This document shows positions 50,272-64,000 of a DNA stretch of 64,000 nt, piece after piece. Location: IMG/VR virus record IMGVR_UViG_3300021964_009390, positions 158,462 through 222,461 of that record; one strand, written 5' to 3'. Both the position numbers and the translations under genes were made by a program. How positions within the stretch are numbered: position 1 is the stretch's first letter; every line of letters begins with the position of its first letter. Under the pieces are notes generated by a model. The model worked only from the letters and a program-made list of their open reading frames with translations, did no database searches and had not been told where the DNA came from. This DNA is from a virus.

Positions 50272-50793
50272 ATGGCGTTGAACATATCCACATTAAAACC
50301 AAAAAAACTAGGCACAACACTAACTGATGGTAAATCAACATACAAGGACATCTCAGATGTATTTGAACTCAAATCAGATTCATCTGGATCACAACTGTAT
50401 GGTGAAAGTCTATCCAAGGACCTAGCTACGGATGTAGATTATAAAGCTATAAGCAACAGCTTACAAAATATATTCAACACGTCACCTGGTGAAAAAATTT
50501 TAAACCCAGCATTTGGGGCAGATTTGAAGAGATATTTGTTTGAACCTATAGATGAAACAACCGCGGAAGTGATAGGTAATGTTATTGTCAAAGCTATAAA
50601 ACTGTATGAACCGCGTGTGACTATAAAAAATGTACAAGTCATCGCTCGCCCGGATGAAAATGAATATATCTTAAATATATTTTTAGAAATACCGGCAATT
50701 AAAACAAGGGATAAAGAGTTTAAATTTAACGGTAAACTAACTGACAGAGGTGTAATGACACAAAGCAACGCATCCGGCCGGTCCGAAATATAA
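50272..50793 (+). CDS. 25: gp25 baseplate wedge protein
   Basis: A 173-residue protein of the gp25/lysozyme-like baseplate family (T4 gp25 is 132). ATDVDYKAISNSLQNIFNTS, then PGEKILNPAFGADLKRYLFE, and YEPRVTIKNVQV with the conserved EPR triad, are diagnostic. It joins the sheath initiator to the wedge. The N-terminal 45 residues extend beyond T4 gp25. It is followed eight bases later by gp6. Confidence 0.92.
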   Translation: MALNISTLKPKKLGTTLTDGKSTYKDISDVFELKSDSSGSQLYGESLSKDLATDVDYKAISNSLQNIFNTSPGEKILNPAFGADLKRYLFEPIDETTAEVIGNVIVKAIKLYEPRVTIKNVQVIARPDENEYILNIFLEIPAIKTRDKEFKFNGKLTDRGVMTQSNASGRSEI

Positions 50794-50800
50794 TATATAT

Positions 50801-52771
50801 ATGAGCACATTTAGAACAAACAGCGACCTAGTAGATTTTACATTACCTAAACAAGGTTATGCAGCTTTTGACGCCGCCGGGCTCAAAAGTTTAATAATTG
50901 AACGTTTAAACACAAACAATGTATTTACAGACCAAAATTTCGAAGGTAGTAATATAAATGCGTTTATAGATGTTATAAGTTATGCCTACCATGTGTTGCT
51001 ATTCTATTTGAATAACACTAGTAATGAGACACTATTTTCTGAAGCTCAGATATACGAGAATATAAACAGAATAGTCAAGAGTATAGATTACAAACCTGTA
51101 GGAACACAATCCCCGGCGTTGACTATTGATGCACTTGCTTCTAGCGCACTTACCCCCGGGACATACACTGTTCCTCGATATTCAAATATAATTACTAGAG
51201 GTGTCAAATACTGCTTCAAAAATGATGTAACTTTTGTCAAAACTAACACTGTAGATGAAGAAATATCTAGTATATCCGGAAAAGAATTATTGTACCAGGG
51301 TACATATCACCAATATCCGGAATATACATCATCCGGGGAACCTAACGAAATATTGACATTAGTCCCGGAAGAAGGAGCTAGCATTGACCATTTTAGCATA
51401 GATGTATATGTGTTAGAAGGTGGTACCGGTGGGCAATACCATCAGTATAATGTATCGACATCACTATTTTTCGAAAGACCTAACAACCGCGCATGTGAAA
51501 TCCGGTTAAATGAAAACAAAAGGTATGAAATCCGGTTCGGTAACGATATAAATGGTAGGCAACTACAAGCTGGTGACGTGGTGTATGTATACTATTTAGT
51601 AACCGATGGAGAAGCCGGGGAGATAGAAGCAAATGCCGCGGTATCAAGATCTGTAACACTGTACTCGTCAAACCAATTGAGCACGTTGTTGGCAAGCGAC
51701 AATATCAAGGGTGAAGGTATAGTGTACATGTCGCAATCTGAAGCAGATAATTTATTAATAAGCAACACCGAACCTAGTTCAAAATACTACACTGGTGAAA
51801 CCGTTGAAGATATACGTACAAACGCTCCGAAAACATTTACAGCTCAATACCGACTAGTGAGTATAAGTGATTATGAATCTTACGTGATATCTAACTATAG
51901 CAATTTTGTAGCAGACGTCAAAGGTATCGACAATGATACATATTTAGACACACATATAAAATATTACTATGATTTAGGATTGAAATCACCAAACTTAGAA
52001 AGTCGTATACTGTATAACCAAGTACAATTTAGTACTAGCTGTAATTTTAACAATTTATATTTGTATTGCGTACCTCGCTTAGAAAAAACCTCTAGTATAA
52101 CTAAAAGAGCTAATTATTTAACATCTGCTCAAAAAGAATTGATAATAAATCAAATGTCTAGGACAAAAACTATTGCATGTGACCCTATAGTAATGGATCC
52201 CGTATATGTGTCAGTGGATATAGGGGTCAGAGGTACTAACGAAACGCTATCATATACTCAACCGCAATCAACTCGGTTAATGATAGTACAGGACGACAAT
52301 AGCCGAGTCAATAGTAACGACATCATACAAAAAGTAGTTAATATATTTAAAACATATTTTAACCCAGTGACTGCAAAAATAGGTATGACAATAGATTTAA
52401 CATCTATAAGTAACGATATATTATCTATACAAGGTGTTAACACATTTTACGTGTACCGTCCGGATCTAGGCGGTACATATGTTGAAGGTTTATCGTTATA
52501 TGTTTGGAATTCAGTATATACTAGTGACACGATCCAAACTACGCAAAACATTACTCTACCCGTGTTCAAATTTCCATTTTTTGAAAATGTAGACACCCTA
52601 GGTGATAAAATAGTAGTAAACCGACAGAGTGACGCGATAAGTGTGTTGAACGCAGCAGGTACAAGCCAGACTGGGGTTATAGATGTAGTAACTACACCTG
52701 TAACAGATTCTACATCTGCAGATTCTACATCTGCTTCTAGCTCAATTTCTCCAGGATCATCTCAATATTAA
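50801..52771 (+). CDS. 6: gp6 baseplate wedge protein
   Basis: A 656-residue protein, the same length as T4 gp6 (660). The N-terminus (FEGSNINAFIDVISYAYHVL) and NTSNETLFSEAQIYENINRI match the conserved start of the gp6/J family. A central QYRLVSISDYESYVISNYSN and a late region VVNIFKTYFNPVTAKIGMTI are further matches. gp6 dimers form the inner baseplate ring. The C-terminal 25 residues are Ser/Thr-rich (TDSTSADSTSASSSIS), an early sign of the Thr/Ser tracts seen downstream. One base separates it from the next gene. Confidence 0.92.
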   Translation: MSTFRTNSDLVDFTLPKQGYAAFDAAGLKSLIIERLNTNNVFTDQNFEGSNINAFIDVISYAYHVLLFYLNNTSNETLFSEAQIYENINRIVKSIDYKPVGTQSPALTIDALASSALTPGTYTVPRYSNIITRGVKYCFKNDVTFVKTNTVDEEISSISGKELLYQGTYHQYPEYTSSGEPNEILTLVPEEGASIDHFSIDVYVLEGGTGGQYHQYNVSTSLFFERPNNRACEIRLNENKRYEIRFGNDINGRQLQAGDVVYVYYLVTDGEAGEIEANAAVSRSVTLYSSNQLSTLLASDNIKGEGIVYMSQSEADNLLISNTEPSSKYYTGETVEDIRTNAPKTFTAQYRLVSISDYESYVISNYSNFVADVKGIDNDTYLDTHIKYYYDLGLKSPNLESRILYNQVQFSTSCNFNNLYLYCVPRLEKTSSITKRANYLTSAQKELIINQMSRTKTIACDPIVMDPVYVSVDIGVRGTNETLSYTQPQSTRLMIVQDDNSRVNSNDIIQKVVNIFKTYFNPVTAKIGMTIDLTSISNDILSIQGVNTFYVYRPDLGGTYVEGLSLYVWNSVYTSDTIQTTQNITLPVFKFPFFENVDTLGDKIVVNRQSDAISVLNAAGTSQTGVIDVVTTPVTDSTSADSTSASSSISPGSSQY

Positions 52772-52772
52772 A

Positions 52773-55700
52773 ATGAGTTTACAAGCTGATATACAATACA
52801 CAGTATTGAAAGCTGACCAAGTGTATACATCAGCCCTCACCCCGGTATCCGCTGTACCATGGAACCAACGAGGAGATCCACGCACATTTCCAATAATCCC
52901 GGTTGATTATGACCGGAGCAGTGTTGTATGGGACTTTGGTGACGGTACAACATACACTGGTGTGTCTGCCCAACATATATACACTTGGCCTGGTACATAT
53001 GAAATCTCAATGTATATTATAAACTCAAGCGGTGAACCAGTCAAATCTACTGTGACTGACACTGTTACAGTTTTAGATTTTGTATCAACACAATTCGAAT
53101 ATACAACTGTCAAGGATATAATCGATATACCATCCGGTTCTGTAGTCAATCCGATACAATTAAATTTTGTGTTAAGTTGGCAAAATTACACGATACCCGC
53201 TAGACAAGCACCGTTGTGTGATAGTGGTAAGCAGCATTGGATGAACGGTGGTACATCTCCCGGTTACTGGATGTGCGGTGACACTCATACCGGTGCAGAG
53301 AACCCACCGGTATACACATTTAGCTTGTACGCTAGTGGATCCAATGCACAACCTGTGGACACACGAGCATATCAAAAAGACAAATATGCGCACTTGACCC
53401 CGTCGTGGTATTTCACCAGCGCACAACCAACATTGACATCTACTCCAATTACGTCCCTAGACGTAACAATGCTAGACACACTTACTGGCACTACTGGTGA
53501 TTATAATACATACGAACCCTTGTATTACAGTTATATAGACAACGAGTTTCAACAAGTAACGGCAGATACACCTGGGTCTGTATTCGTAGGTGTGTCCGGT
53601 AATGCCACATTTTATTACGTAGATGATAAACCTAAAGCTAAAACTAGTAATGATACATCTGTCATAATAAATACCCAGTTAGATAGTATCAAGTTACACG
53701 ATAGTCAAACCATTAGAGGGGAAAACCTACCTCTAGTAAAACATAACAATGTAAAAAATAACACACTAGCCAACATCAAGCCTAGGATAAACCTCCCGGC
53801 AAAACTAGGTGTAACCTGCAATGGATTAAATGACTTTCAAATAGGCAAAAACAAATGGGTGAACGGGGAGACCCTTTTCACCATCACAGTACAAGATTCC
53901 ACCGGATTCAACATACTAGACAGCACAGTGATTAACGATACGAACATGAGCCTGTCATTGAAAGACCAATTTGGTAATGACGTGGCTTCAGATCTATATG
54001 ATATAACACATATACAAGATGCAGCCATGGGTTACTACCAAGGATCTATAAACATTAACACACCTATGGATGATGTGAGTGTACATGGTACATTGACATA
54101 CACACCCGCCAGCGGATACACAAGTGATGCTATAGTGGCTTGGTACAACAGCTACAGTGCAACTGATACATACGGGGAAACACATCGAGTATACTATGCT
54201 GAAAATTATGAATATGACAACAGCAAGCTAACAAACAATATAACAACCAGTTTCACTAAAAGTTCTACTAACATTAAAACATCCGGTATTGTGTCTGACA
54301 TAACGTTAACTGACGGAGGATCTAGTATGTTGGCGAGACCCAACGCGGAAATGACCGGGCCCGGAGAAGGTGCAGTACTAGAATGTGTGTATGATGACAC
54401 AGTTAAAAATATAACTGCTGTTAACGTGTTGTCTGGTGGTGTAGGATATGACTCAACATCAACAGTGGATTTCGAAGTGTTTCCTGTTGCTGCTACCAAA
54501 CCGACGGTCAACACTATAACATTGGAAAATAACTACCAAACCACTTTGGCAGCTGTAGCATTAGAAGACCCAAACGTATCTCAACATGCATGGTTACTAG
54601 AAACAGGTCTGAGCCCTAGATTGGTACGAGCTGACACTAGGAATATTGTGAACACCACTGACATAACCGATTATGATGCTAGTTCCACCGGTGCAAATTC
54701 AATCATGCTGGATAGTACCAAGAATGTTTGGATTTTAACAGATAATCGATTGTTAAACATCAACCATGCAGATGCTTCACTGTTAAACAGTTACAACATT
54801 ACTGGTACATGTTTAGAAATAGATACAGAAAATGTATATGTAGGTCACACCACGTCTATAACAAAAAGTCTCATATCCACACCAGACGTACCAGCAGATA
54901 CATACAATGCTTCTAGTAATATTGTATCTATACTATACACGAACACACAGACACTGTATGTATTGAAAAGCAACAACGAAATTGACATAGTGGATGCAAC
55001 CACCATGAGTAGAGTCAGTACTGTAACGCTCCCCTCAGGTTCATACACACAATTGACCACTACTATAGACAATAATGTATATACAAGTTCCAGTACCGGT
55101 ATATTATACAGAATCACCCCCGGTTCATCCATGGAAATTTTGTACGATAACAGTGTAAGTGCACCAAATATAGCAAGTATCTGTGGTGATTCACGCGGAT
55201 ATTTGTGGATGTCCGATACCGCTAACAAGAGAATATGGATAATTGATGGGGAGAACACAACTTCTAGTGATTTGCAAGTGAACAATGATATAACCACTCT
55301 CAAGAAATCTAATATTAACTATACAAATTATCCGAGCGGATTTTCCGGTGACCATCAACTTGTATCAGTTGGAGATCACACCGGTTTCCATTGGTTACAA
55401 AAATATGGTTATCAAAAACAGATCCCAGTCACATTGACTGGTGCTAGCGCTACTTTTAATGTGCATTCCGCATCCGGGAAATATCAAATACGTAAACAAA
55501 ATGAGGAACATGATCATAAAAACATGTTAAAATCTTATGCATTACAACCATGGTTACAAGACAATTACAATTTGTGGGAAAATACAGTATCATACGCTCT
55601 GGGGGATTCTGATTCACTTCCTACCCAAATAGGTAAATTGTATCACGAAAAAATCGCGAATTTTGTGAATAACAACAGTGATATTGACGATTCTAATATC

Positions 55701-56339
55701 GATTCTATACATAGCGATACATTATTGTACCAAGTACCGATTCAAACATATACATTAGATTTTCCACCGTCATTCGCTCGATTGTTCAATATTATATCTA
55801 TAAAACACAAACGATTGTATGGAGAGTTTGACCAGCTCACGGACAATTTTGACCAATTCACTGATTACACCAACCCGTTGAGGGAAAATTTAGGTGAAGA
55901 AATTGATGTTGAAAATTATACATTAACTGTAGGAGAAACCATTGTAGCGTTAGAAAAATTTTCTAAGAAATATACAAAAATTGAAATACCCTTACCTACA
56001 ACAGGTACAACTGACAATTACAACAACATTGTTGGATTAACTACAGACATGAGTATATTGACCGGTAATACATATGATTTCAAACATTACAACGTGTATT
56101 GGAACTGGGGTCTTGTGGCACCGGCCACAACAACAGGCACGGATATTACTAATTACTATGGTTTTTATAAATACAACCCTACTGTTAATCTACCACAAGC
56201 TGAAGGAGTCATCAACTGGAACGATCCACAAAATACATTAGACTCTACCGACCAAACCTATGCATCATGGTCAGATGACACTGGGGTGATGGACAACATG
56301 ATAGAGCACCAGCTTCGCACCGGTTTAGGTATAATATAA
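52773..56339 (+). CDS. Large baseplate protein at the gp7 position, with PKD and propeller-like domains
   Basis: An 1188-residue protein. A PKD-type Ig domain lies near residues 45-105 (VWDFGDGTTYTGVSAQHIYT then PGTYEISM). Beta-rich segments, including VLSGGVGYDSTSTVDFEVF near 550, follow. Residues about 590-890 look like a beta-propeller (NIVSILYTNTQTLYVLKSNN, SICGDSRGYLWMSDTANKRI, DHTGFHWLQKYG). The C-terminal 280 residues (QPWLQDNYNLWENTVSYALG onward) resemble baseplate wedge proteins of marine T4-like phages. Position immediately after gp6 supports a gp7 role. Adhesion domains suggest it also contacts the cell surface. Confidence 0.68.
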   Translation: MSLQADIQYTVLKADQVYTSALTPVSAVPWNQRGDPRTFPIIPVDYDRSSVVWDFGDGTTYTGVSAQHIYTWPGTYEISMYIINSSGEPVKSTVTDTVTVLDFVSTQFEYTTVKDIIDIPSGSVVNPIQLNFVLSWQNYTIPARQAPLCDSGKQHWMNGGTSPGYWMCGDTHTGAENPPVYTFSLYASGSNAQPVDTRAYQKDKYAHLTPSWYFTSAQPTLTSTPITSLDVTMLDTLTGTTGDYNTYEPLYYSYIDNEFQQVTADTPGSVFVGVSGNATFYYVDDKPKAKTSNDTSVIINTQLDSIKLHDSQTIRGENLPLVKHNNVKNNTLANIKPRINLPAKLGVTCNGLNDFQIGKNKWVNGETLFTITVQDSTGFNILDSTVINDTNMSLSLKDQFGNDVASDLYDITHIQDAAMGYYQGSININTPMDDVSVHGTLTYTPASGYTSDAIVAWYNSYSATDTYGETHRVYYAENYEYDNSKLTNNITTSFTKSSTNIKTSGIVSDITLTDGGSSMLARPNAEMTGPGEGAVLECVYDDTVKNITAVNVLSGGVGYDSTSTVDFEVFPVAATKPTVNTITLENNYQTTLAAVALEDPNVSQHAWLLETGLSPRLVRADTRNIVNTTDITDYDASSTGANSIMLDSTKNVWILTDNRLLNINHADASLLNSYNITGTCLEIDTENVYVGHTTSITKSLISTPDVPADTYNASSNIVSILYTNTQTLYVLKSNNEIDIVDATTMSRVSTVTLPSGSYTQLTTTIDNNVYTSSSTGILYRITPGSSMEILYDNSVSAPNIASICGDSRGYLWMSDTANKRIWIIDGENTTSSDLQVNNDITTLKKSNINYTNYPSGFSGDHQLVSVGDHTGFHWLQKYGYQKQIPVTLTGASATFNVHSASGKYQIRKQNEEHDHKNMLKSYALQPWLQDNYNLWENTVSYALGDSDSLPTQIGKLYHEKIANFVNNNSDIDDSNIDSIHSDTLLYQVPIQTYTLDFPPSFARLFNIISIKHKRLYGEFDQLTDNFDQFTDYTNPLRENLGEEIDVENYTLTVGETIVALEKFSKKYTKIEIPLPTTGTTDNYNNIVGLTTDMSILTGNTYDFKHYNVYWNWGLVAPATTTGTDITNYYGFYKYNPTVNLPQAEGVINWNDPQNTLDSTDQTYASWSDDTGVMDNMIEHQLRTGLGII

Positions 56340-56342
56340 ACT

Positions 56343-57119
56343 GTGAAAAATATAACAGTAGTTATACCAATATACAAATTGGACACTCACCGGTATAAAA
56401 ATTTAATGTTCATACTGAATAAACTGTACAGGAAACATAAAATTGTGATTGTGGAACAGATCACCGACTTTTCACACCTTTCATTGCCAGAGATATACAA
56501 TATTAAAAATATAAACCATGTGAAACTTTACAGCGAATGCAAAAACATTAAAAAATGTTGGTTGATAAACATGTCATGCAATTTTGTCAAAACCTCGTTC
56601 ATATGGATAATCGATTGCGATTTTTACATGAACTTTGACACTGTAAAACTCAGTGACGATATGTTAAACAAATATAATTTTATACAACCGTTTGTATACG
56701 CTAGGAATTTGAGTGAATTAGAAACAAAAACGCTACATGACACTGGTCATATTGAAATAAAATATTATGACGGGTTGGAATCCGAGCATCGCCATGTAAA
56801 TGTATACGGTGCGTTAAGTTTTATATTCAATATTAATAAATTCAAACAAATAGGTGGTATGGACGAACAGTATCAGGGATGGGGGTACGAAGATTACGAT
56901 ATATTTCTGAGAATACATGAACAACTCCCTAATGAAAACATATATATCAACAAACAACAGACTGGTATGCATCAGTGGCACCCGGTCATGGAAAACATAG
57001 AAAATCAAGCCAGTAACAACTTAGAAATTTTCCAACAAAAAGACTTCAATTTAACTAAAGTAAATAAAATACTGAAAGCAAAATATTACCAAGATTGGGA
57101 TTTTGGTGATGTGGATTGA
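56343..57119 (+). CDS. GT-A family 2 glycosyltransferase inside the baseplate operon
   Basis: A 258-residue enzyme from a GTG at 56343 (MKNITVVIPIYKLDTHRYKN). The nucleotide-sugar site is IWIIDCDFYMNFDT near 92-98 (DCD as the DxD motif), and the acceptor side has YGALSFIFNINKFKQIGGMD followed by WGYEDYDIFLR, the galactosyl/GalNAc-transferase-type C-terminal motif. It lies three bases after the gp7-like gene and 30 bases before the next fibre-like gene, so it is expressed late with baseplate and fibre proteins. A TATAAT at 56330-56335 is present but lacks a -35 box. A virion protein substrate is an attractive inference. Confidence 0.85.
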   Translation: MKNITVVIPIYKLDTHRYKNLMFILNKLYRKHKIVIVEQITDFSHLSLPEIYNIKNINHVKLYSECKNIKKCWLINMSCNFVKTSFIWIIDCDFYMNFDTVKLSDDMLNKYNFIQPFVYARNLSELETKTLHDTGHIEIKYYDGLESEHRHVNVYGALSFIFNINKFKQIGGMDEQYQGWGYEDYDIFLRIHEQLPNENIYINKQQTGMHQWHPVMENIENQASNNLEIFQQKDFNLTKVNKILKAKYYQDWDFGDVD

Positions 57120-57134
57120 AACTCTACATAGTTT

Positions 57135-57142
57135 ATTAAATA
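57135..57142 (+). promoter_or_regulatory. Late promoter for the gene at 57150
   Basis: ATTAAATA, seven bases before the ATG at 57150; an overlapping TATAAATG at 57141-57148 is also present. Confidence 0.6.
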
Positions 57143-57149
57143 TAAATGT

Positions 57150-60100
57150 ATGCCTAACCAACGAACATACTACTCTAGTAACAAAGATATAGACGAGGTA
57201 TCTACTATAAACCCCCTGTCGTATGTGGAGTGGTTAAAATATGAAAATAGTTTTGACAAAAACACAGCTTTTGAACTGTATACTGTATATTTAAACAATT
57301 GGTACACTACTAATACCAAGGTTACAGCAGAACAGCAACAACAATATGTAAGAAACCAATATATTCAATTGTTAAAGCAGATCACACTAGAATATACAAC
57401 TGCTGATGAAAAAAGATTTTTGTCAAACTTAGATTATACAGACAACAAAGATTTAGACGTAGCGTTACCGTTCTTCAGCAAAAAAATCAAACAAATAGCA
57501 ATATACTACGCTAGTCAACGTGAAGAGATAAAGTATTCAAAAATTAAAAACAATCTGAAGGGTAGTGATTTTGGTATGAGTCAAATAATATACAAGCAAT
57601 TTGCTGACACTATCGCTAATGACACACAAATTGTGGAACAACTACAAGACTTAAACTTGACTTTGAACGATGTTTTGTTAAATCTGGAAATATCTGTAGA
57701 AGAGCTGTACGATACAGAGCAAAATTATTATAATATTTCGCCCGGAAGCGACAAAAAAGAATACACAACATTCAACAACTCACCACGTTACAATTATTTT
57801 GACATGTCCATACTACCTACAAGTTCGCGGATGTTCATACAAGAGTTGTACACCCAGGCAGTTATTGATTTGATAAAAGAAGTCCCAGTGATGCTATTAT
57901 CAACCAAAGGTGATGATGCTAATTACGAAAATGAAACACTAGTGTACGCTACCGGTGAGGCAATAGCCATATCCGAAACTGTGACCGGTACCGAACTAGA
58001 TCGGTTGGATGCTAGTGCGTTTATCAACTACACAGACACTGGAGCTTTAAATATAAGTTACGAACAATTAGCATTTCAAAAATATTCCGGGACTGACTAT
58101 TTTTATCTCAGCACTGGTGACAGTTTGACAGACACTATAACCGGTCAATTGTTCACGGCCACTGCTGCGCATAAGAACATTCTCAACAGACATCACCCAA
58201 CAATAGCCAGTGTCACTGGGGAGAATTTGTATAAATTAGAATATTTAGGGGGATTTTTCTTAGGTACCGGTATAGGTCTCGCCAGCTTTGCATCATTTGA
58301 TTTTGAATACAAGTTCAAGCCAGAATTAAACACGGTAATGTATTTTCCAGATCCCCAGGTAGGATCAACCGGTTATTTTGGCGCGTATGAAAAGTTCAAA
58401 GCCCCGGTGCAATACTATGAAAACGTAAATTGGAACAAACAATCTGTAGTAACCACATACAATTATGGCTTGCAATCACAGTTGGATAACATGCCTAGGT
58501 TCACTGCTTACCAGTCATCAGAGCACATACTCAACGAACCTACCGGAGTGTTCCGGTACAATGATGTATATGATTTTTGGACACCTACAGGGCAAAATGT
58601 GTGGCTCAACGAAGATATATATGATAAGCAGCAACAGCAATCGGACATAGACGATAGACAATTACAACTTCACACTGGTCAAAAAATAGTATACAAATGG
58701 AAGACGGATATTTACGGTAACAACTATGCACTAGTGAAAAACAATATCTCTCCAGAAAAAACACCACCGGTTAATACAGCCAGTAATATAACTGAGAGTG
58801 AATATGTTACAAGCACATCTACTAACAAAAGCGCCAACATATCTAAATATGAATGGCATAATAAAACCGAAGGGACCACTCATGGACGAAAAAATTTGTC
58901 AGAACAAAAAGAATCTCCCGGGGAATTGTACATCAGAAACAACACGTTTACTGGTATACATTTAGTAACCGATACAATATTTTCAGATGTGTATCAAAAA
59001 TACGTTATATCCGGGACTGTAGAATATAAAGAACGGACAATAACAATTAGCGATATTGGTGCCGAGATTGTAAGCAATTTAATAGACATTGACATAATAC
59101 AGGACATAATTATATTAGAAACTGATTCATACATAATTTTTGAAAAATTGTCATATGATTACGACACTGGTCGGATATATAGTGACAATAAAAATTATAC
59201 GTTCATTGTAAAAAGGTATTACGGTAACAGTTACAACATGACAGGTAATTGGTGGTTTGATGAAGACAAGCAACGGATCTTAGTATGTCAGACCAATGTA
59301 CACCCGACGTATCAAAACACAAACGACAAAATGATATACATTATTTTATATAATTTTGATATTAATACTTTGAAATTGAGGCAAGCGTACCCGGACCCAG
59401 ACTACACTGCCGCTCAATTGGTATACGAAACAAGTCAGTATTCATTGAGTGCTATACCTAGTGAACACAACATCGTGAAAGTAAAGCCACCCATGTTGAC
59501 ATTCAATAAAGATTCTGAACGTTACAGTGTATCACAATTGCAATTTGATTCCACCCGGAACCCATATTATCTCAAAACAGATTTCCGAATGTACATGGAA
59601 ACAATCGAGCTGATAAGAACTAACTTTTTTAAACACAATTACTTCAGTTACTCGTTAAACAGTTACAACGAGTCTGTTGAGGATTATTTTTACGAGACAA
59701 ACACAAGTATAACTACACCAACATGGTACCATGGAACCTCTGATGATGTAGTGTATATGGGTGCAACTGAAGCCGCAGGAGCACCAGTAGCTATTCCAGG
59801 CTACAGCAACAGCGTGTGGACATACGGTATAGACTCGGACAGCTACGAGTCTGAACGTGATATAATATTATCATTCGATTATTGTATGTTTGGCAATGCC
59901 GCGCCGTTTGGGTTAAGTGTATTGTTTTACAATTCAAGAAACAGTACAAACACTGGGTATGAAACAGTCGCATCAGGCGGTCTTGGCCCGGCTTTCAATT
60001 ATTTGAACGATACAACTACCGGTTCCGGAACTCAAGCTAGTTCGACCGGTTTGCAACACGGTCATGCTTGTGTGGCATTGGATGCAACCGGTAATTACGG

Positions 60101-60587
60101 TAATTCGTCGCTCACCAGCGGAGAGACACCAATTGCTGATAGTGTAGTAGTGTCCGGTCCATATGAATCTGCTATGACACAACGTGATGTGACTGTGTTA
60201 CCAACAAAATTTAAATTGTATGACTCATCAATAGATCAAGACAGTTTAAAATTCACCAGATGCCGGGTGACTCTAACGGACCTGGGTCGACGCGTGTTTG
60301 TAGACATGATGAACCCGGAATCAGACTCCCGCTACACCAGAATAAGTGACACCCAAATAAGTGATTACTACCCGACCGGTCCAGCTGGTACCACAACCAC
60401 AACCACAACCACAACCACAACCAGTAGCGGTGGTGGTACAATCGTACCGTATTACACCATACCAACCAAATTGAATGTATCATTAGCTTTCAACAATAGC
60501 AACCCAATCGGTGGGATATGTGCCATCCGGGACATCACAATCACCGGTAGTAACGCTTCACGTGCCGGTCTCGCAGTAACTGTCTAA
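57150..60587 (+). CDS. Large baseplate or fibre protein with Thr linker, unknown T4 equivalent
   Basis: An 1145-residue protein. The N-terminal 200 residues are helical (YVEWLKYENSFDKNTAFELY and YYASQREEIKYSKIKNNLKG). A long beta-rich, Tyr/Thr-rich body follows. A C-terminal module begins NSVWTYGIDSDSYESERDII and contains FDYCMFGNAAPFGLSVLFY, a lectin/jelly-roll-like pattern. Near residue 1080 a Thr run of ten (encoded by repeated ACCACA) links to a final strand-rich piece (YTIPTKLNVSLAFN). It sits in the position of gp8 or gp10, but I could not match it. Late promoter, no SD. Confidence 0.7.
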   Translation: MPNQRTYYSSNKDIDEVSTINPLSYVEWLKYENSFDKNTAFELYTVYLNNWYTTNTKVTAEQQQQYVRNQYIQLLKQITLEYTTADEKRFLSNLDYTDNKDLDVALPFFSKKIKQIAIYYASQREEIKYSKIKNNLKGSDFGMSQIIYKQFADTIANDTQIVEQLQDLNLTLNDVLLNLEISVEELYDTEQNYYNISPGSDKKEYTTFNNSPRYNYFDMSILPTSSRMFIQELYTQAVIDLIKEVPVMLLSTKGDDANYENETLVYATGEAIAISETVTGTELDRLDASAFINYTDTGALNISYEQLAFQKYSGTDYFYLSTGDSLTDTITGQLFTATAAHKNILNRHHPTIASVTGENLYKLEYLGGFFLGTGIGLASFASFDFEYKFKPELNTVMYFPDPQVGSTGYFGAYEKFKAPVQYYENVNWNKQSVVTTYNYGLQSQLDNMPRFTAYQSSEHILNEPTGVFRYNDVYDFWTPTGQNVWLNEDIYDKQQQQSDIDDRQLQLHTGQKIVYKWKTDIYGNNYALVKNNISPEKTPPVNTASNITESEYVTSTSTNKSANISKYEWHNKTEGTTHGRKNLSEQKESPGELYIRNNTFTGIHLVTDTIFSDVYQKYVISGTVEYKERTITISDIGAEIVSNLIDIDIIQDIIILETDSYIIFEKLSYDYDTGRIYSDNKNYTFIVKRYYGNSYNMTGNWWFDEDKQRILVCQTNVHPTYQNTNDKMIYIILYNFDINTLKLRQAYPDPDYTAAQLVYETSQYSLSAIPSEHNIVKVKPPMLTFNKDSERYSVSQLQFDSTRNPYYLKTDFRMYMETIELIRTNFFKHNYFSYSLNSYNESVEDYFYETNTSITTPTWYHGTSDDVVYMGATEAAGAPVAIPGYSNSVWTYGIDSDSYESERDIILSFDYCMFGNAAPFGLSVLFYNSRNSTNTGYETVASGGLGPAFNYLNDTTTGSGTQASSTGLQHGHACVALDATGNYGNSSLTSGETPIADSVVVSGPYESAMTQRDVTVLPTKFKLYDSSIDQDSLKFTRCRVTLTDLGRRVFVDMMNPESDSRYTRISDTQISDYYPTGPAGTTTTTTTTTTTSSGGGTIVPYYTIPTKLNVSLAFNNSNPIGGICAIRDITITGSNASRAGLAVTV
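60390..60423 (+). repeat. Hexanucleotide ACCACA tandem repeat encoding poly-Thr
   Basis: About five and a half copies of ACCACA, encoding the Thr run of the 57150 protein. It is flanked by PAG and SSGGG linkers. Confidence 0.85.
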
Positions 60588-60588
60588 T

Positions 60589-63174
60589 ATGAACGATAAA
60601 AAATTAAAGTTACCAGAATATACAATCAATTTGTTACACGACAAAAATCCACCTAGTGGAACACAGGTGTATAGTGATGCGTTCGTACTCAAAGGACCAC
60701 ACGATGTAAAATTTCAACTCACAGGAGACAACAATTTTACAAAAATAATATACAATTTCGATTATGTACAGCAATGCGAAACATCCACTTTACCAGCTAG
60801 CGGTCAGCATGTCATAGAAGCTTCAAGACACAACAACACTAATTTTTTATTAGACCCGAGTCAACAGACAATCGAGACTAGATTGTACCCTGACAAATAT
60901 CAATATAAAAAGACATACTACCCAGGTCTGACTACAATAGATGAAGATTTTAACACGGTGGTGCACCAATTGAGTGTGACCATCGCCCAACCCTCGTTCC
61001 ATGAATTTGTAGACGATGTCAATTTAGCCGGTGTCCGTGCTTTCACTAACGTTGACAACGAGCGAGGAAAAGCCATTATATTGTTAGAAGATGTACGCAA
61101 CGAATGGATTGTACCAGTAACGCTGTACGGTGAAGGAGAATTCACCGGTGTGTTGGATCTGGGTAACGCCATATACGGGCAGATAAAGTTTGATATATGT
61201 TTGAGACGTGCTCCCTATGATAATATCAATCCAGAGGGTGTAGAGGTAATAGGTGGTGGTATATTGGAGCAAGATGCATTTTTAGGCAGTGTAAAATACG
61301 GTACATATCAAAACGCGATAGAAGGGTTAGATTTGAGCGGCGCGGTCAAAGACGAGTTTACATTGACCAACACCGGACAATACATATTGCACGTAACCGA
61401 CGTGACATCCCCCGGTATACCGTTCTTCATGGACACTGAGTCGTTGATAGGTCCATACTCACCACTGGACAGTGGCTGCGAAAACGAACGAACCGCGGAT
61501 GTGTACTATGTGGTACCCGAGATTGTTGATCTAATGGATGCAATCAACGGAACTGGCAAATACTCCGGTGGTTTACCCACCACGACTATAGATGATGCGG
61601 ACCAAATAACCATCACCAACACCAGCGCCAACAACCCAAATTTAAAAGTTGATCTAGTAGCATCCACCAAAATAGCGCAACTCGAGGTTGTGTCAGGATA
61701 CGGAGATTTGAATGCAACACCAGTGACATTCACACCAACGTTGATGGGTACACAGAGCACACAGCCGGTGAAACTGGTGAATAATGGTACCTGCCCGGTG
61801 AAAGTATTTGATATTGTACCATACACAACAAACGCTGCCGGTGACAAATTATCAGTAGCAACATCCCCAGAAATAGTACCGGACAGTTTCAGACTACCGT
61901 TCGTGATGTTACCAGGTGAGACTCGTACAATAGATGCTATTTTCAACCCACAGACATATGTTGATACTGTGGACGGTGGTAGTGAAGATGTTGTGTCACA
62001 TTCTGATTACAGTGGTCTCAAAGTGGATAAAAAAGTGGTATGGGAGATAGTTAGTAACGGTTTCAACGCTGTTAGACATAATGTGTTCTTGGAAGGTGAT
62101 GTGTACACCACAACAACAACTACTACAACCACAACAACAACTACTACAACAACAACCACAACTACTACAACAACAACCACAACTAACACCGGTACAACTA
62201 CCACAACCACTAGTACTACAACCACTACCACAACCACTTGCCCGGCCATCCGCGAAGAAGTGTATGTACGATGGCAGTACGAACCGGTGTATGTAGTGGA
62301 AGGTCAAAACGCCATAGTGCATGTGATCAGAGACCCTCGAAGCGATTACACTGGTGCTTTCTCCGTGGACTATGCTACATCTGATCTGACAGCAATATCT
62401 ACTGGCCCCAACAGAGACTATTTGAGCCTCACCGGGACTTTGAATTTCTCGGCAGGTGAAATGTCCAAGAGTTTAAACATACCAACATATTATATGGGTG
62501 GTAGTACATTAACCGGGATTGATGCGAAAATAACCAAACTAGAAACTGCGGAAGCTTTCAATATCACGTTGAGTAACGTGGTTGCTGCAGATTCATGCAC
62601 CAACAAGTATTTTATCGACCCGGCCAACCCAGTGGGATATGATGCAGCAAGCGTGACACCCACACACCAGGTGGTTATACTAGACCGTTTCACATATTCA
62701 GTCAGTAGCGTTGGCCTAGGAGGTGGAGGAGGAGCATCTCCATGTACATTCACTTCGGTTGTTGCAACACTAGACATGTCCGCTTTGACGCTCACAGTGG
62801 ATAGCGCATCTAGCAACACAGACAAAATTATCAAGGTGTACAACAGCGACACTGGTGTGTTACTAGGTATAATCCCGGCCCAGTCTTCCGGGGTGCTAGA
62901 CGTGTCCGGTCAGTCTGTAAGTGGCAGCAACACTTTGAACATAACATACGAGAGCTGCGGCTGTTGTGTGGTGGAGAGCTACGCATATCCATGTTCTTGG
63001 GTGAGTGTAACAGGAGACATTGAATGCTGTAACATAACCAATGTAACAGGAGCTATGTCATGTTGCAGTATATCTCATGTGTCTGGTGACATGTCATGTT
63101 GCAGCATAAGCGGTGTTGCCGGCTCCATGTCATGTTGCAGCATAAGCGGCGTTGCCGGTTCCATGTCATGTTAA
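60589..63174 (+). CDS. Fibre-like virion protein with poly-Thr linker, Calx-beta domain and Cys-Cys repeats
   Basis: An 861-residue protein. Residues 1-500 are beta-rich (including FTLTNTGQYILHVTDVTSPG and VKLVNNGTCPVKVFDIVPYT, HYDIN/ASH-like repeats). Residues about 506-550 are nearly all Thr. Residues about 555-675 look like a Calx-beta domain (VYVVEGQNAIVHVIRDPRSD, then DYLSLTGTLNFSAGEMSKSL). From about 807 to the end there are four and a half copies of a 12-residue unit, V-x-G-x-M-S-C-C-S-I-S-x. It lacks an enzyme motif. It probably forms part of the baseplate periphery or a fibre, with a host-contacting tip. Confidence 0.72.
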   Translation: MNDKKLKLPEYTINLLHDKNPPSGTQVYSDAFVLKGPHDVKFQLTGDNNFTKIIYNFDYVQQCETSTLPASGQHVIEASRHNNTNFLLDPSQQTIETRLYPDKYQYKKTYYPGLTTIDEDFNTVVHQLSVTIAQPSFHEFVDDVNLAGVRAFTNVDNERGKAIILLEDVRNEWIVPVTLYGEGEFTGVLDLGNAIYGQIKFDICLRRAPYDNINPEGVEVIGGGILEQDAFLGSVKYGTYQNAIEGLDLSGAVKDEFTLTNTGQYILHVTDVTSPGIPFFMDTESLIGPYSPLDSGCENERTADVYYVVPEIVDLMDAINGTGKYSGGLPTTTIDDADQITITNTSANNPNLKVDLVASTKIAQLEVVSGYGDLNATPVTFTPTLMGTQSTQPVKLVNNGTCPVKVFDIVPYTTNAAGDKLSVATSPEIVPDSFRLPFVMLPGETRTIDAIFNPQTYVDTVDGGSEDVVSHSDYSGLKVDKKVVWEIVSNGFNAVRHNVFLEGDVYTTTTTTTTTTTTTTTTTTTTTTTTTTNTGTTTTTTSTTTTTTTTCPAIREEVYVRWQYEPVYVVEGQNAIVHVIRDPRSDYTGAFSVDYATSDLTAISTGPNRDYLSLTGTLNFSAGEMSKSLNIPTYYMGGSTLTGIDAKITKLETAEAFNITLSNVVAADSCTNKYFIDPANPVGYDAASVTPTHQVVILDRFTYSVSSVGLGGGGGASPCTFTSVVATLDMSALTLTVDSASSNTDKIIKVYNSDTGVLLGIIPAQSSGVLDVSGQSVSGSNTLNITYESCGCCVVESYAYPCSWVSVTGDIECCNITNVTGAMSCCSISHVSGDMSCCSISGVAGSMSCCSISGVAGSMSC
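62106..62240 (+). repeat. Degenerate ACA/ACC/ACT tract encoding about 45 threonines
   Basis: Almost pure Thr codons, mixing ACA, ACC and ACT in short patterns, interrupted only by NTG and single Ser codons. The mixed codons suggest old expansion and later point change. The minus strand reads poly-Val, which is not a gene. Confidence 0.9.
63007..63171 (+). repeat. 36-bp repeats encoding the Cys-Cys domain
   Basis: Units at 63007, 63043, 63079, 63115 and a partial unit at 63151, each 12 codons. The last units are nearly identical (ATGTCATGTTGCAGCATAAG), while the first is diverged (GACATTGAATGCTGTAACAT). The stop codon follows in the truncated fifth copy. Confidence 0.9.
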
Positions 63175-63205
63175 AAGCAAACTAATCATGTTAAAAGCAA
63201 ACTAA
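63166..63205 (+). repeat. Exact 20-bp tandem duplication across the stop codon
   Basis: TCATGTTAAAAGCAAACTAA occurs at 63166-63185 and again at 63186-63205. The first copy contains the last codons and stop of the 60589 gene; the second lies in the intergenic region. Confidence 0.95.
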
Positions 63206-63229
63206 ACACGTTTAAAATGAAGAAATCGT

Positions 63230-63237
63230 AATAAATA
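63230..63237 (+). promoter_or_regulatory. Late promoter for the gene at 63264
   Basis: AATAAATA, 26 bases before the ATG at 63264. No SD is seen in the leader. Confidence 0.6.
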
Positions 63238-63263
63238 ATTGTTATAGATTCTATACCACCACT

Positions 63264-64000
63264 ATGAGCTGTACAAATTGTCAAGTTACGATAACATCTG
63301 TGACCGGAACCCCGGAAAAATACGACCTTCGCAAAGTTAATGCAGATGGAAGTACCGGTGACCCGTTTACCATTGTAGGATCCGGGTTGAACGCAGTGGA
63401 TTTTGAATTGACCGAGCTACCATGGACCATTTACGTAGGGGATTCAGGGGATGCTCATTGGGTTCGCGACTTGGGTGGTGTGAATACAGACAGTGGGTCG
63501 TGGGGACCTGGTGATGGTCTGACAGTCACTGTACGTGTACAGAACCATGATGATGCAAATTGCTACTACGATGTGGAATACACATGTGTATCAGTCACCA
63601 CTACAACAACCACGACCAGTACTACAACCAGCACCACAACTTCAACTTCGACCAGTACTTCAACTTCGACCAGTACTACAACTAGCACCACGACCAGTAC
63701 TACAACCAGCACCACGACGTCGACTACGACCAGTACTTCAACTTCGACCAGTACCACAACTTCAACTTCGACCAGTACCACAACTTCAACTTCGACAACA
63801 ACCAGTACCACAACTTCAACTTCGACCAGTACCACAACTTCAACTTCGACAACAACCAGTACTACAACTAGCACCACGACCAGTACCACAACTTCAACTT
63901 CGACAACAACTTCGACAACAACTTCGACAACAACTTCGACAACAACTTCGACAACAACTTCGACAACAACTTCGACAACAACTTCGACAACAACTTCGAC
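63264..64000 (+). CDS. Partial fibre-like protein with Thr/Ser mucin-like tract, running off the right edge
   Basis: The gene starts MSCTNCQVTITSVTGTPEKY at 63264 and is open to the end of the window (245 codons). The first about 112 residues form a small beta domain with CTNC near the start and a later NCYYDVEYTC pair. From about residue 114 the protein consists almost only of Thr and Ser, first irregular (TSTTTS, TSTSTS) and then a regular TSTT. The stop codon is not reached. It has no match to the ORF catalogue I know. A fibre, spike or surface decoration protein is likely by context. Confidence 0.72.
   Translation, partial: MSCTNCQVTITSVTGTPEKYDLRKVNADGSTGDPFTIVGSGLNAVDFELTELPWTIYVGDSGDAHWVRDLGGVNTDSGSWGPGDGLTVTVRVQNHDDANCYYDVEYTCVSVTTTTTTTSTTTSTTTSTSTSTSTSTSTTTSTTTSTTTSTTTSTTTSTSTSTSTTTSTSTSTTTSTSTTTSTTTSTSTSTTTSTSTTTSTTTSTTTSTTTSTSTTTSTTTSTTTSTTTSTTTSTTTSTTTSTTTS
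63897..64000 (+). repeat. 12-bp tandem minisatellite encoding (Thr-Ser-Thr-Thr)n
   Basis: The unit ACTTCGACAACA repeats without error, in frame, about 8.7 times to the window edge. Upstream (63600-63896) the tract uses the same codons in longer irregular units such as ACCAGTACCACAACTTCA. The copy number beyond the edge is unknown. Confidence 0.95.

Follow-up and report, generated by a model that had tools for sequence, protein, structure and literature searches.

The window analyzed here is a stretch of 64,000 nucleotides (64 kb) that forms the terminal part of a 222,461-bp IMG/VR virus record (IMGVR_UViG_3300021964_009390); the source of the record is an environmental T4-like phage, the major capsid protein of which, encoded at the opposite end of the record, has ~33% identity to cyanophage gp23. 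Behind the gp25- and gp6-like baseplate genes of the window, three consecutive genes encode proteins with threonine/serine (Thr/Ser) tracts, and these are preceded by a gene for a glycosyltransferase (GT) with GT-A fold, here termed GT1. With a probability that we put at roughly 0.6, these tracts are mucin-like virion stalks that are O-glycosylated by phage GTs, such that a second, GT27-like enzyme would initiate the glycan chain and GT1 would extend it. Genomic association lends good support to the proposed O-glycosylation of the tracts by phage-encoded enzymes, and we lean towards the wider view that many uncultivated phages and some bacteria employ mucin-type O-glycosylation, with a GT27-fold GT encoded downstream of its own tract substrate and with GT1 or GT60 enzymes joining or replacing it.

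The IMG/VR database was scanned with a two-sequence alignment of the second GT, which yielded 45 loci that were grouped into 31 clusters below 80% identity. A mucin-like tract was defined, before counting, as at least 23 T, S or P in 30 residues, including at least 10 T. A tract protein is encoded in 24 of the 31 non-redundant loci, in comparison to 4/77 gp6 and 3/79 poly-Gly control loci (p=6e-14 against the gp6 control; 21/28 and p=2e-12 with the phage's own clade excluded); of the seven tract-negative loci, two have shorter Thr tracts in the gene directly upstream, and the beginning of another three coincides with a contig edge or lies close to one. The tract genes are located on the strand of the GT27-like gene in 28/28 cases, upstream of it in 27/28 cases, and immediately upstream in 16/28 cases (2.1 expected, p=1.6e-11). 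When their tracts are masked, the tract proteins form 18 groups between which no homology is detected, and the tract-neighbour state requires ~19 changes on the GT tree, at least 13 of them on well supported branches; these repeated changes exclude a single inherited gene pair. The neighbouring gene families comprise terminase, major head, head protease, tape-measure and tail-fibre genes, hence at least part of the GT27-like loci are phage structural regions. The family is also carried by bacterial genomes, in which the pattern appears to recur, with a tract protein encoded in 20/80 loci and a tract immediately upstream in 8/72 cases (1.5 expected). The first-pass annotation had considered a co-occurrence of Thr tracts with GT1 in related phages; co-occurrence was found, though mainly via the GT27-like family.

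A structure of the second GT family was predicted with AlphaFold2 from a 28-row alignment (predicted local distance difference test score, pLDDT, 93.8; predicted template-modelling score, pTM, 0.92), and the best 50 matches of this model in the Protein Data Bank (PDB) are all polypeptide N-acetylgalactosaminyl (GalNAc)-transferases of family GT27 (E 1.7e-13 to 2.9e-11, template-modelling score [TM] ~0.7). Over the catalytic domain, the sequence profile of the family matches ppGalNAc-T10 (E=3.5e-6, best), T4, T7 and T12; stronger matches, to TarP and TarS, are confined to the N-terminal nucleotide-binding part. The profile alignment to ppGalNAcT10 lines up DxH, GGE and a late His, and the GT27 hallmarks, i.e. 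the DxH metal motif, (W/F)GGE(N/E) and the third metal His, are invariant or nearly so in the 28 rows (D96, H98 and E195 in 28/28 rows; H219 in 24/24 covered rows). Pfam and NCBIfam yielded no model that names the family beyond generic GT2, and a search of INPHARED with three members gave no match for two of them and one weak partial match for the third, hence no annotated phage carrier. Two GT27-like proteins (L398:7137-9107, L412:8001-9773) have a C-terminal region that is weakly methyltransferase-like (PF13578, below cut-off).

The second GT gene follows the tract gene in two relatives (G005 and G003) and adjoins the portal gene in a third (L389; 76-78% DNA identity to the window genome). 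The record terminates within tract 3, in a perfect 12-bp repeat (window 63895-64000, 106 bp), and its start also lies within a tandem repeat, in a head-tail adaptor gene (L002:1-180). The stretch between these two ends is spanned by relatives L126, L128 and L389, in which ~8 kb hold, apart from a small gene or its larger homolog and the second GT, the genes for a 780-aa protein and the portal as well as the beginning of the adaptor gene. Since both ends of the record are tandem repeats inside genes, the assembly halted there, with ~8 kb including the portal gene missing, and a GT27-like gene is predicted by synteny within these ~8 kb. Upstream of the second GT, L389 also encodes a 535-aa protein with a HEILH metalloprotease-like motif (L389:104-1708), the homologs of which in G003 and G005 have merely 185-193 aa.

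The features of the baseplate-region gene block in the window are as follows (window coordinates, strand, description).

50272..50793, +, gp25-like baseplate wedge protein, context (PF04965 E=2.7e-14; phrog_261 E=2.8e-31)
50801..52771, +, gp6-like baseplate wedge protein with S/T-rich C-terminus, context (phrog_219 E=4.2e-42)
52773..56339, +, 1188-aa baseplate-region protein with PKD domain, in T4 gp7 position (PF18911 E=1.9e-11)
56343..57119, +, GT1, GT-A glycosyltransferase, beta4GalT/chondroitin-synthase-like (PF10111, PF02709)
57150..60587, +, 1145-aa baseplate-region protein (homologs in 28/77 other gp6-relative loci)
60390..60428, +, 13-residue Thr/Ser tract in the 1145-aa protein (11 T and SS, then GGG)
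60589..63174, +, 861-aa structural-type protein with conserved N-terminal region, Thr tract, Calx-beta domain and Cys-rich repeats
62107..62238, +, 44-residue Thr tract of the 861-aa protein (position and length kept in relatives)
62293..62484, +, Calx-beta domain right behind the 44-residue tract (PF03160 E=3.6e-6)
62990..63171, +, five Cys-rich 12-residue repeats, CC-I-x-x-V-x-G-x-M/L, at the C-terminal end of the 861-aa protein
63264..64000, +, tract protein 3, 245 aa or more, cut by the contig end
63597..63998, +, (TTTS)n tract of protein 3, 134 residues or more (last 106 bp a perfect 12-bp tandem repeat)

Homologs of the 1188-aa protein lie after gp6 in most gp6 relatives. The three tract proteins had been labelled as fibre/baseplate proteins; their position behind gp25 and gp6 agrees with this putative assignment, but a PHROG search gave no match for any of them. 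The Cys-rich repeats of the 861-aa protein (CCSISGVAGSMS), of which both relatives have shorter arrays, possibly form a disulfide- or metal-bound beta structure.

The longest Thr/Ser run of the 1145-aa protein has 13 residues (aa 1081-1093; 11 T and 2 S), the 861-aa protein has 26 T (aa 507-532), N-T-G, and 15 T/S (aa 536-550), in total 44 residues, and protein 3 has 134 T/S residues (aa 112-245) in a run still open at the contig end. Stretches of about 10, about 45 and more than 100 residues, as first reported, are therefore borne out as 13, 44 (with a brief interruption) and at least 134 residues, and none of 2,000 composition-preserving shuffles per protein reached the observed runs (shuffle maxima 9, 9 and 29, respectively). 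By the rule given above, the 861-aa and 245-aa proteins carry mucin-like tracts; at 13 residues, the tract in the 1145-aa protein lacks the necessary length. The C-terminal end of gp6 is indeed S/T-rich (...TTPVTDSTSADSTSASSSISPGSSQY), as had also been pointed out, but it contains no run of more than 3 residues and is ordinary for the composition of gp6; no further T/S runs of at least 8 residues were found in the scanned pieces of the 222-kb record.

The 861-aa protein has 44-47% identity to the versions in two relatives, in which the tract comprises 26-28 T and a T-rich segment of 14-17 residues at the same place. Its Thr codons differ at 14-23 of 26 positions between relatives, as expected for random draws. 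Constant length and place despite scrambled synonymous codons argue for selection at the protein level, by which this old tract is maintained; they exclude a microsatellite artefact as its origin. In general, the tracts act like interchangeable spacers between domains: a CBM5/12 domain (PF02839) is found in the 1145-aa homolog of relative G005 in the region of the 13-residue tract of the window (L126:2899-6627). Poly-Thr linkers of at least 16 residues between domains are widespread among the phage proteins of IMG/VR (L137-L216) and often adjoin Pro-rich or Cys-rich segments.

The tracts could be read as plain flexible linkers that were lengthened by repeat slippage and are left unglycosylated, with the GTs as unrelated passengers in the late operon. 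Such long poly-Thr is common in IMG/VR, mostly in records with neither a GT2 nor a GT27-like gene, and tract 3, which ends in a perfect 12-bp repeat, is missing in relatives. We consider plain linkers rather unlikely, for the tract of the 861-aa protein has a constant length with scrambled codons, the GT27-like family adjoins tract genes of 18 groups with no homology detected between them, always on the same strand, and none of 50 poly-Gly linker records contains such a GT gene.

Several observations weigh against glycosylation of the tracts by phage enzymes. Only 4/50 poly-Thr phage records contain a GT27-like gene, and 38/50 contain no GT2 above cut-off; since most poly-Thr records lack such a GT, tracts do not need a GT27-like partner. 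(The difference in generic GT2, 12/50 poly-Thr against 4/50 poly-Gly records, is borderline at p=0.054 and was not relied on.) The second GT has no match in the window's own record, which breaks at the site of the gene in three relatives. Tract 3 is new, as relatives have a T run of just 3-4 residues at this site, and its end is a recent 12-bp repeat expansion, with repeat slippage (microsatellite) as the likely origin. No Pfam match for a ricin-type lectin domain was obtained in the full-length GT27-like proteins scanned, and for this reason the family is called GT27-like rather than assigned to GT27. Finally, just three diverse relatives of GT1 were found, and its model is poor (pLDDT 58).

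GT1 matches PF10111 (E=1.6e-9) and PF02709 (Glyco_transf_7C; E=2.5e-9, 37.1 bits at a cut-off of 23), and contains the motifs DCD, GWGYEDYD and HQWH; its profile matches beta4GalT1 (E=1.7e-5), and the predicted model, poor as it is, has a fold match to the chondroitin polymerase K4CP (E=4e-8). GT1 falls on the beta-4-galactosyltransferase (beta-4-GalT)/chondroitin-synthase side of GT-A, in line with the GT-A enzyme of GalNAc/Gal-transferase type that the first-pass annotation had recognized at 56343-57119. This likeness makes an extending role likelier than an initiating one, and GT1 is probably a chain-extension enzyme. Thus, from the earlier proposal of virion O-glycosylation by a phage enzyme, the genomic association stands, but the GT visible in the window is probably not the initiator.

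Among gp6 relatives, GT1 was found solely in three records of the clade of the window phage, where it occupies a gap of 790-810 bp between the 1188-aa and 1145-aa genes; in other relatives these two genes are mostly 3-40 bp apart, without tract and GT1. Two of the three clade relatives reach the 861-aa gene, both with the tract, and the third (G004) ends before it. The poly-Thr pattern occurs in three of 50 gp6-relative records, namely two clade members and G048 (in an unrelated 144-aa protein). With co-occurrence confined to one clade, the GT1-tract association represents one event and is suggestive only. A single-sequence search with GT1 found no relatives in INPHARED or IMG/VR, and an alignment search found the same clade and one weak match; PF02709 was above cut-off in 0/50 poly-Thr records, i.e. 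without enrichment. The idea that GT1 alone accounts for the tract association was rejected, since GT1 has too few relatives.

At 129-141 kb (L008:9272-19832, L009:3-617), the same record contains a glycan cluster with genes for GDP-mannose 4,6-dehydratase, an epimerase, WcbI, an RgpF-like protein and several GT2, which shows an investment of the phage in sugar chemistry and may serve another purpose. With this cluster, with the resemblance of GT1 to polysaccharide synthases, and with phage GTs often modifying DNA or host serotype (PMC12619734), the GTs might be thought to decorate the host envelope (lipopolysaccharide or capsule) or phage DNA instead of the virion, independently of the tract proteins. 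This appears improbable: no tract genes adjoin the GTs of the cluster, whereas both GT1 and the second GT are located inside the structural block, and the fold of the second family matches specifically polypeptide-acceptor enzymes. A host enzyme could also glycosylate the tracts, the phage GTs then merely extending the chain or acting elsewhere, as bacteria encode the GT27-like family, in some cases beside tract proteins of their own, and many poly-Thr phages have no GT; we regard this as very unlikely, because it leaves the placement of the phage gene directly downstream of tract genes unexplained.

GT60 and GT27 are both families with a known role in starting O-glycan chains on polypeptides. 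In two outgroup gp6 relatives, a Thr/Pro (TP)-rich linker protein is directly followed by a GT60-type enzyme (PF11397 E ~1e-70; 237 and 254 bits at a cut-off of 21); both phages are without Thr tract and GT1, and the GT60 family is absent from the other 48/50 gp6-relative records. This pairing appears to be a second, independent convergence on a tract with a polypeptide-type GT. The TP-rich/GT60 pairs (L027:18442-21814, L035:17513-20428, L441, L442) lie in a tail-region cassette with further uncharacterised genes.

In the mechanism that we infer for phage-encoded glycosylation, the Thr/Ser tracts would be interdomain stalks of baseplate/tail-region virion proteins and would act as the acceptors. 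The GT27-like enzyme would be encoded in the missing ~8 kb, in the same late block as the 861-aa tract protein and three genes further downstream. Acting before the virion is assembled or while this happens, it would place the first sugar, probably an N-acetylhexosamine (HexNAc), on Thr/Ser of the tract; GT1 would then lengthen the O-glycan chain. The sugars would render the stalk extended, stiff and protease-resistant. If this is true, a GT27-fold enzyme with tracts in prokaryotic viruses would extend mucin-type O-glycosylation outside the eukaryotes and bear on the origin of the animal ppGalNAc-transferases, phages would possess a self-encoded virion glycocalyx, and compact enzyme-substrate pairs would be available for tests in E. 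coli.

Virion glycosylation as such is already known from mycobacteriophages, as cited in PMC12619734. The phage of the window shares with them the implication of phage GTs and, as proposed here, virion proteins as glycan carriers. In mycobacteriophages, capsid and tail-tube proteins are reportedly glycosylated, with phage GTs implicated (work of Freeman et al. in 2023), and the glycosylation sites are said to lie at the C-termini of the capsid and tail tube subunits. Neither a mucin-like tract nor a GT27-like enzyme has, to our knowledge, been reported for this system. A literature search, with most subscription papers outside its reach, found nothing on phage mucin-type glycosylation, and no explanation for the poly-Thr linkers common in environmental phage proteins.

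With the GT7 beta-1,4-galactosyltransferases and K4CP, GT1 shares DxD, G[WY]GYED and WH; it differs in its size of ~250 aa, and its model is poor. The GT60 polypeptide N-acetylglucosaminyl (GlcNAc)-transferases include Skp1 Gnt1 and the Trypanosoma ppGlcNAcT; the likeness here is that two outgroup phages (2/50 gp6 relatives) carry a GT60-type gene next to that of a TP-rich tail-region protein, and the family is separate from GT1 and the GT27-like enzymes. The GT27 polypeptide N-acetylgalactosaminyltransferases catalyze mucin-type O-glycosylation in animals and Toxoplasma, and a C-terminal ricin-type lectin domain is typical of the animal members. The GT27-like proteins differ from them by ~14% identity in the fold alignment, by the lectin domain not found on them, by the weakly methyltransferase-like C-terminal region of some members, by their viral and bacterial origin, and by an activity that is only predicted; they share with them the GT-A catalytic fold (TM ~0.7), DxH, GGE and the late His, and an association with Thr/Ser/Pro-rich, acceptor-like tracts.

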